The notes below the pieces were generated by a model that had not been told where the DNA came from, did no database searches, and saw only the letters and a list, made by a program, of their open reading frames with translations. From NCBI GenBank assembly GCA_024224155.1, contig JAAENP010000211.1:1-64000 (forward strand): 64,000 nucleotides of DNA. Direction: 5' to 3'. Shown here piece by piece: positions 45,071 to 46,883 of this stretch (positions are counted from its first letter, which is position 1; each line of letters opens with the position of its first letter). Made by a program: the position numbers and the translations under genes. This DNA is from a bacterium. GTDB lineage: Bacteria; Acidobacteriota; Thermoanaerobaculia; Multivoradales; JAHEKO01.

Positions 45071-46359
45071 TCCGGCAGCTGAAGTCGGCCGTGCTCGGCT
45101 GCCTGATGCTGGCGGTAGCTCTCGAGCCCTCCTGGGCCGCTGAGTCCCGACGCACACGGGTGGTCGAGATCGTCGAACGGGTCGCCCCGGCGGTGGTCAA
45201 CATCTCGGCCGAGGCGATCGTTCGCCAGGCGGATCCCTTCTTCGGCCGGCTTTTCGGCCGCCGCCGCCGCGTCGAGTCTCTCGGCTCGGGCTTCGTGGTG
45301 GCCGCGAATGGAACGGTGGTGACCAATGCTCACGTGATCGAGGGAGCTTCCCGGATCCTCGTGACGCTGAGTACCGGCAGGGAGCTGGAGGCGGAAGTTC
45401 TGGGTTTCGACAGAGACTCGGATCTGGCCGTGCTGAAAGTGGCAGGTCGGAACCTGCCGGCCGTCGAGCTGGGATCGAGCTCGGACCTGCTGATCGGTGA
45501 GACGGTGATCGCGTTGGGCAATCCATTGGGCCTCTCGAACACCGTCACCACCGGCGTGCTTTCGGCGCGTGGCCGAACGGTGCCGGCCGAGACCGGCGAG
45601 CGCTTGTTTACGGACTTTCTCCAGACCGACGCGTCGATCAACCCCGGGAACTCGGGTGGTCCGTTGGTGAACCTCGAAGGGGATGTGATTGGAATCAACA
45701 CCGCTATCGTAGCCGGAGCGGAGGGCATCGGTTTCGCGATCCCGGCCGATCGAGTGCGCCGGGTCGTCGACGATCTGCTGCGCTATGGCTCGTTGCAGCC
45801 GATCTGGACCGGGCTCCGACTGGTCAGCCTCGATCGAGAGCTAGCCCGGGAATACGATCTTCCCCTCGACCGCGGAGCCATCGTCGAACAGGTTCATCCC
45901 GGATCGCCGGCCGCGCGCTCCGGATTTCGTGTCTCGGACGTGTTGCTCGAAGTTGGCGACCGCAAGGTTTCGTCGAAGGAAGACGTAATGACGGCTGTCT
46001 ATTCCGTGGCCGTTGGCAGCCGCGTGCCGATCAAGATCTGGCGGGATGGCAGCCAGCGCGCTCTGGACCTACCGGTCGAGACTCCGCCTGCGGATCTCGG
46101 CATCAGCCATCTCGAAGCTCAGATCGGTTTGTTCGTCGAGCCCTTTGAAGGTCGATTGGTGATCGTCGGCGTCCGACGCGGGTCGGCCGCCGATCGGAAA
46201 GGCCTCGAAAGAGGTGACCTGGTACTCGCCGCCAACGGCCAACCGGTCGAGACGACCGACGAGTTGGCGCACGAGGTGCTGCGGGCGCTCGATCGCGGCG
46301 GCCTGCTGCTGGTGGTGAGCAGAGGGCGCAGGTCGTACTATCTGAGCTTCAGGCTCTAG
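45067..46359 (+). CDS. DegP/DegQ-family periplasmic serine protease (S1C)
   Basis: The protein has 430 residues from the ATG at 45067, coupled by ATGA to the oxidase gene. A signal peptide (LGCLMLAVALEPSWAAE) is followed by a trypsin-like domain with complete triad His89 (VTNAHVIEG), Asp119 (DRDSDLAVLKV) and Ser196 (PGNSGGPL). One PDZ domain (GAIVEQVHPGSPAARSGFRVSDV divided by its carboxylate-binding loop) and a second weaker one (VIVGVRRGSAADRKGLERGDLV) follow. The role is periplasmic quality control or regulated proteolysis. The 180-bp inverted repeat starts at its stop codon. Confidence 0.93.
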   Translation: MIRQLKSAVLGCLMLAVALEPSWAAESRRTRVVEIVERVAPAVVNISAEAIVRQADPFFGRLFGRRRRVESLGSGFVVAANGTVVTNAHVIEGASRILVTLSTGRELEAEVLGFDRDSDLAVLKVAGRNLPAVELGSSSDLLIGETVIALGNPLGLSNTVTTGVLSARGRTVPAETGERLFTDFLQTDASINPGNSGGPLVNLEGDVIGINTAIVAGAEGIGFAIPADRVRRVVDDLLRYGSLQPIWTGLRLVSLDRELAREYDLPLDRGAIVEQVHPGSPAARSGFRVSDVLLEVGDRKVSSKEDVMTAVYSVAVGSRVPIKIWRDGSQRALDLPVETPPADLGISHLEAQIGLFVEPFEGRLVIVGVRRGSAADRKGLERGDLVLAANGQPVETTDELAHEVLRALDRGGLLLVVSRGRRSYYLSFRL

Positions 46360-46538
46360 CCTGGCCTTCTCACCAACCTTCTGCTGCGACGCCGTAAATG
46401 CTTGAATCTGCAGCGTTACGCTCCCATCGGCTTCCTCGACGTACGTCGAGTACGCCTGCGTCAGCCTCGGTCGCAAGCCTTGCATCCTCAAACACTTCCG
46501 GCGTCTCGCTAAGAACGCTGGTGAGAAGGTCAGGCTAG
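46356..46538. repeat. Imperfect 180-bp inverted repeat (palindromic element)
   Basis: The outer ends are inverted copies, with CTAGCCTG[G/A]CCTTCTCACCA matching at 19 of 20 positions. Similarity continues weakly inward, including GACGCCG and TTGA blocks. The centre is a perfect 16-bp palindrome, CTCGACGTACGTCGAG (46435-46450). The right arm is about 9 bp longer. It fills the gap between degP and the Zn-ribbon gene. It contains no transposase and looks like a REP/MITE-type element; it could also form a terminator-like cruciform. Confidence 0.65.
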
Positions 46539-46565: not shown

Positions 46566-46883
46566 TCAGTCGAGATCGAAGGGGCGGGGGGGAGGCTCGT
46601 CCTCTGGAGATTCCCTGGCCTCCCGGAGGGCCTCTTCGAACTTGTCTTCCAGGAGGCGGTCCCGGTTCTTGAGGGCCGAGACCTCTCGCTCGAAGAGATC
46701 CTCGGCGTGAACCCTGTCCTCGTCGAGCTTCTCGAGCAGTTGATCGAAGTCTTGGCCCCCTGCCGGGGCGGCTTTCTTCGGCTTGTGAAACAGTACCTCG
46801 CCGGTCTCGCGGTCGATCACGAGACGGCTTTCGCAATCTGGACAGCGAAGCGTTAGTTTGCGGGACCCCGTCATCAGGGCCAT
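46566..46883 (-). CDS. Small zinc-ribbon and coiled-coil protein
   Basis: A 105-residue protein from the ATG at 46883 (MALMTGSRKL). Residues 10-30 hold a CPDC motif (LRCPDCESRLVIDRETGEVL), one half of a zinc-binding ribbon, followed by a charged helix (KLDEDRVHAEDLFEREVSAL) likely to form a coiled coil. The C-terminus is Pro/Glu rich. The family is widespread in Acidobacteria-like genomes but has no known function that I recognise. A longer upstream frame would run into the binding-protein promoter. Confidence 0.6.
   Translation of the reverse strand: MALMTGSRKLTLRCPDCESRLVIDRETGEVLFHKPKKAAPAGGQDFDQLLEKLDEDRVHAEDLFEREVSALKNRDRLLEDKFEEALREARESPEDEPPPRPFDLD

Follow-up and report, generated by a model that had tools for sequence, protein, structure and literature searches.

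An imperfect inverted repeat of 183 bp at positions 46356-46538 (plus strand) of the window, the 64,000-nucleotide stretch of acidobacterial DNA analysed here, is a real mobile element, a fold-back MITE of the IS1380 type. Judging from its ends and its target duplication, it was most likely moved in trans by an IS1380-family transposase, a reading to which we assign a probability of about 0.82. The copy in the window represents a single insertion that its two congeners lack; the more interesting part is the element family, whose core and length are kept across phyla.

An insertion on the degP stop codon

The window belongs to contig C211 of a draft genome of 5.71 Mb in 576 contigs. The preliminary description of this DNA had reported an imperfect inverted repeat of 180 bp filling a whole intergenic gap. 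Its coordinates were exact and its length is 183 bp; the gap is nearly filled, with the element starting on the last bases of degP and about 27 bp left before the next, convergent ORF. The degP product has Trypsin_2 and PDZ domains and is DegP/HtrA-like. The convergent ORF (46566-46883, minus strand; LRCPDCES motif) had no Pfam match at 0.001, and this stretch of DNA matches many relatives.

The outer arms of the element (46356-46382 and 46512-46538) comprise 27 nt each and are 89% complementary. The left CTAG (46356-46359, plus strand) holds the degP TAG stop (46357-46359) and is assigned to the target duplication from the empty site in a congener and from the YTAR duplication at other copies, while the right CTAG (46535-46538, plus strand) is the second copy of that duplication, as read from the tetramers flanking element copies. 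Between them lie the terminal inverted repeats, CCTGGCCTTCTCACCA at 46360-46375 on the plus strand and its partner at 46519-46534 on the minus strand (TGGTGAGAAGGTCAGG on the plus strand). Both were delimited by comparison of the arms and by the ends of other copies, which terminate in YTAR followed by CCYGNCCTTCTCACC, and the left one also by IS1380 ends. Inverted ends around 183 bp that hold no transposase gene are what is expected of a MITE.

A search for further copies, one of the checks proposed in the preliminary description, brought the near-identical loci in the genome to three, with older and partial ones besides. Near-identical copies lie on contigs C118 (97%) and C143 (96%). A match on C252 (97%) ends at the contig end and has a left flank in common with C143, so that a single locus has apparently been split between these two. 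An older full-length copy is found on C154 (71%), followed by a tail of partial copies. At E<=1e-4 the element matched 27 of the 59 genomes searched, namely its own and 26 of 58 relatives, and in genome G003 the end motif (at most 1 mismatch) occurred 97+94 times versus 0+0 for the reversed control. Copies are thus dispersed over several places, as in other MITEs. Viral contigs scanned for the end pattern gave 0 exact matches, and plasmid records searched with the element gave no match. Two loci in G003, L147 (C66) and L148 (C104), are mini versions with CTAG on both sides, an inner length of 61 and 63 bp, respectively, and a missing interior. At L090 (G031:C15) and L107 (G006:C350), another set of ends abuts the shared CTAG, which looks like the result of one more copy inserting into the duplicated target.

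The degP locus is present without the element in both same-genus genomes, where the empty site at the stop reads CTCTAG (G001) and CTGTAG (G002). A second copy, L002, is absent from its place in G001, and near the stop of the same gene G002 carries a different copy of the element family. Empty sites in relatives are a further property of MITEs. The preliminary description had suggested a non-autonomous mobile element, with a single copy at a site conserved in all relatives as the outcome that would speak against it. We found the opposite, several copies and a degP site that is empty in both congeners, and the target-site duplications it had proposed to look for are present.

These duplications were assessed from 122 scored end pairs, a few of which (31 and 39 bp) arose by chance. 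The inner length is 173-177 bp in 106 of the 122, shorter in 7 and longer in 9. CTAG stands on both sides in 76 pairs, the tetramers differ in 41, and identical tetramers other than CTAG were seen in 5 (CTAA in three, TTAG in one and TTAA in one); no tetramer pair among the 122 was of the inverted-only kind. Because CTAG is palindromic, the CTAG/CTAG pairs cannot show a direct duplication, which is instead readable from the three CTAA/CTAA pairs and the TTAG/TTAG pair, and the TTAA/TTAA pair agrees. From the identical non-CTAG pairs, therefore, the target duplication is 4 bp. We read the flank pattern as a YTAR duplication of 4 bp with later mutations. At degP, the element would have landed on the CTAG formed by the last codons of the gene. 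Duplication of this target leaves the TAG stop of degP in place, and the protein should be unchanged; a CTAG target explains how an insertion on a stop codon need not alter the protein.

Across copies, insertions favour TAG stops. We took 148 CTAG flanks with a length of 316 nt or more and retained as informative the 103 whose longest open frame has at least 90 codons. TAG is the stop of the longest frame in 66 of the 103, while in 19 and 18 it falls in the other two frames, which serve as the control; the test is coarse, with frames chosen by length. CTAG itself is strongly depleted in the window (1-64000), with 38 occurrences observed versus about 211 expected from base composition.

IS1380 as the candidate helper

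The IS1380 family includes ISEcp1. Like the element, insertion sequences of this family (NF033539 / PF13701) have a 4-bp YTAR duplication and CC[CT]G..TTCTCACC inverted ends, but they carry a transposase gene and among the loci listed measure 1.6-1.9 kb (one doubtful 2.1-kb pair apart), against 183 bp. An IS1380-family transposase would recognise such ends in trans, and its insertion at YTAR, mostly CTAG, would give the 4-bp duplication. The mostly TTAA duplication described for piggyBac transposons, which were compared with IS1380 as outgroup (PMC10813416), fits the YTAR pattern.

A scan of named genomes yielded at least 80 IS1380-family loci, which are not independent (7, for example, come from one Singulisphaera genome, and L249 repeats L225). 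Both ends of the element type are present in 54 of the 80 loci listed, including L321, probably a chance pair; in the other 26 both ends were not shown, partly because contigs stop. Identical 4-bp tetramers flank 44 of the 54 two-ended loci listed (25 CTAG, 7 TTAG, 7 CTAA, 2 TTAA and 3 others). The end plan and the YTAR duplication common to the element and this family point to an IS1380-derived MITE. Against this, the element's own ends have CC at positions 6-7, where AT is usual in the IS1380 ends of the 80 loci listed.

Within the order, PF13701 transposase genes matched in 17 of 72 genomes, our own genome included. The protein of L225 is an IS1380 transposase (NF033539), and it lies between ends of CTAG followed by CCCGGATTTCTCAC, which are inverted at 14/14 positions and have CTAG outside both; L226 and L239 show one end of this type each. 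In the same order, L229 and L233 end in CTAA followed by CCCCTCCTTCTCACCG and CCCTACCTTCTCACCG, respectively, and these CTAA, CCC..CCTTCTCACCG ends sit about 200 bp past the IS1380 C-termini. The 576 contigs of our own fragmented genome contained no IS1380 with exactly the element's ends, and its IS1380 fragments were rejected as direct helpers on account of differing ends (e.g. CCCGGATTTCCCAGAT before the gene of L114). In G003, two ends separated by 3 kb (C134:16311-19284) were likewise rejected as marking an autonomous copy: the intervening ORFs, judged by eye, are not transposase-like, and there is no PF13701 match. A second end type, with TTATTCATGA, occurs near an IS1380 gene in L109 (G002:C123) and on the core-bearing elements L363 (G359) and L368 (G402).

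In more distant genomes, the ends of the element could be compared with those of resident insertion sequences, and they match in two of the three genomes checked. Several element copies in Eisenbacteria end exactly as the resident IS1380 does (CCCGCATTTCTCACC, L256), in a variant that is common. In Methylacidiphilaceae, element and insertion sequence (L311) have in common a rare CCGCC start, found in 2 of the 80 IS1380 loci listed. The Pseudomonadales element ends (CCCGCATCCGTCACC) are not close to those of the resident IS1380 L271 (CCCGGAAAACTCACC / CCCGCTTAGCTCACC). A cognate autonomous IS1380 with the same ends was thus found in Eisenbacteria and Methylacidiphilaceae, but not in our own genome or in Pseudomonadales. 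No PF13701 match was obtained in G001, G006, G008, G009, G023 or G031, all of which except G001 are rich in copies; in these five the helper is missing, lost or unassembled. The genomes without a PF13701 match and the Pseudomonadales mismatch slightly lower our confidence in an IS1380 helper.

Copy-rich relatives of this kind could instead point to a MITE belonging to some other YTAR-duplicating transposase family, for instance the IS5 group, for which YTAR duplication has been reported (PMC10359306), the likeness to IS1380 ends then being coincidental. We consider this rather improbable. IS1380 combines the YTAR duplication with the CC[CT]G-type ends, in an end comparison that covered IS1380 only, and in the two genomes described above the variant of the resident IS1380 recurs in the element ends.

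Fold, covariation and the 3' end of degP

Folding, also proposed in the preliminary description, placed the element strand ahead of all 200 of 200 shuffled sequences (z -6.48 as RNA, -4.71 as DNA). For covariation, we aligned 42 of the 106 full-length elements (A2; a further alignment, A4, holds 34 of those 42) and, separately, 18 hand-picked elements from several phyla (A5), a choice that favours intact ends. The 42 copies support 38 pairs, 93.7% paired, with a covariation of 0.277 versus 0.111 when shuffled and 0.036-0.084 when slid. The 18-element alignment is 88.3% paired, with a covariation of 0.406 versus 0.149 shuffled and 0.058-0.136 slid. The perfect central palindrome of the preliminary description, CTCGACGTACGTCGAG, does exist at 46435-46450, its single occurrence within the window, but it is not the conserved part: only 4 of the 42 aligned copies keep it. 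What is conserved at the centre is a short hairpin, GTAC-GTCGA-GTAC (46441-46453, plus strand), whose arms at 46441-46444 and 46450-46453 covary in both alignments (helix 6 among the 42 copies, helix 7 among the 18 elements).

The strong fold, the covariation and the position at a gene 3' end would also suit a structured RNA or terminator used by the host and not mobile. The character of the changes argues otherwise. Two-sided changes among the 42 copies comprise 154 Watson-Crick versus 17 G-T cells, with 98 cells unpaired or otherwise changed, and we read this Watson-Crick excess as better suited by symmetry at the DNA level than by RNA pairing. The element probably moves as DNA. Arm-to-arm copying could be an alternative source of two-sided Watson-Crick changes. 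At the Rfam gathering score the window contains only a tRNA and the element nothing, its two sub-threshold matches (E 0.025 and 0.29) being far below gathering scores. The preliminary description had further suggested that the repeat could end degP transcription, which our scan did not support: no terminator-like site (a G+C-rich hairpin with a T-run) was detected within the element, and the one site detected lies outside it, at 46624. Together with the empty sites and 4-bp duplications, and with the two sites examined being scattered insertions and not conserved positions, these results make a host-used RNA very improbable. A predicted strong hairpin at the 3' end of a gene could still affect the mRNA.

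A conserved core and comparison with known systems

The interior of the element includes a conserved core (46405-46489, plus strand), recognised by its matches in other phyla. We built from it an 85-nt model, R1, using CTTCTCACC-type copies only; with 4 base pairs, it is mainly a sequence model. At E<=0.01, R1 matched 9 of 31 genomes, our own included, with 8 places in Eisenbacteria, 4 in Methylacidiphilaceae, 1 in Pseudomonadales and the others singly. With the cutoff at E<=1e-4, there were matches in 50 of 297 genomes from the phylum (Acidobacteriota), again including our own, and in 6 of 229 from the class to which the Pseudomonadales genome belongs (Gammaproteobacteria by taxonomy), that genome included. 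Matches with E between 1e-3 and 1e-2, in Singulisphaera, Rhodocyclaceae and Nannocystis, were set aside as probable chance; those in Singulisphaera and Rhodocyclaceae had no recognisable ends on inspection. Many of the core-bearing genomes are metagenome assemblies, in which single matches could be contamination and multi-copy cases are safer.

Ends were sought at distances of 20-75 bp from the core, a range that limits the lengths detectable, and were readable at 14 of the 23 core loci examined. They are inverted and of IS1380 type (YTAR followed by CC..), with YTAR on at least one side, and give lengths of 181-186 bp in 13 elements and 170 bp in one. At the remaining 9 loci the ends are shifted or not clean, some being cut by contig ends. 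The core sequence, the length of about 183 bp and the pairing arms thus recur in Acidobacteriota, Eisenbacteria, Methylacidiphilaceae and Gammaproteobacteria. The element's interior was absent from the 43 IS1380 loci in which we looked for the core: one strong match (L308, 4797-4878, E 7.5e-06) lies beyond the insertion sequence in a separate neighbouring element, and the other 11 matches have E 0.01 or above. Our own genome also has the core between other inverted ends that are not IS1380-like, at G000:C4:51809-51894 (L355; e.g. GCCGCCTAGATCGCGTCGAGTGCC), G000:C433:3792-3879 (L356) and G000:C267:10927-11011 (L022); such elements may serve other transposases.

The general view of bacterial MITEs is that they derive from deletions, do not last long and have nothing but their ends in common with a helper. 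We tentatively entertain, as a possibility short of our favoured expectation, that the element represents one old IS1380 satellite lineage in at least four bacterial groups, with its length of about 183 bp, core and DNA hairpin constrained and its ends adapting to the resident IS1380. If so, the interior would be a selected DNA structure on which mobility, or insertion without harm at stop codons, depends, and not filler. Should the cross-phylum recurrence of core, length and arms hold, this would be a transposon satellite of long standing, with an interior open to functional tests, and IS1380 transposases would have in it a minimal substrate of natural origin.

No IS1380 MITE comparable to this one was described in the titles and abstract openings searched; ISfinder and subscription papers lay outside the scope of that search, and we make no claim of absence from print. 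Among known repeats, the GTAG/CGTC-tagged REPs described in PMC3733652 are likewise palindromic, dispersed and found in several phyla, and the preliminary description had suggested a REP-type element; for an element that is mostly between genes, a REP or REPIN moved by a tyrosine transposase (RAYT) is nevertheless the least probable origin, given 183 bp with 4-bp YTAR duplications and transposon-type inverted ends (YTAR, then CC..) in place of units of 20-40 bp whose GTAG or CGTC tag is unpaired.

ERIC (enterobacterial repetitive intergenic consensus) is an imperfect palindrome with a size near 127 bp and a TA-type target. By its description in a review, ERIC resembles the element as a MITE conserved beyond one genus, and at the 3' ends of Yersinia genes it affects transcript levels (PMC10969869). 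The same review describes Chunjie of Geobacter uraniireducens, with a full-length Chunjie-1 of 235 bp and 37 more copies of 178-235 bp that keep conserved ends and repeats; on that description, it is like the element in fold-size class and intergenic habit (PMC10969869). MITEPye1 of Paracoccus yeei, as characterised in PMC11578231, has the same combination of ends like those of an insertion-sequence family, direct repeats and a long stem-loop, but is attributed to IS1182-family elements and not to IS1380.
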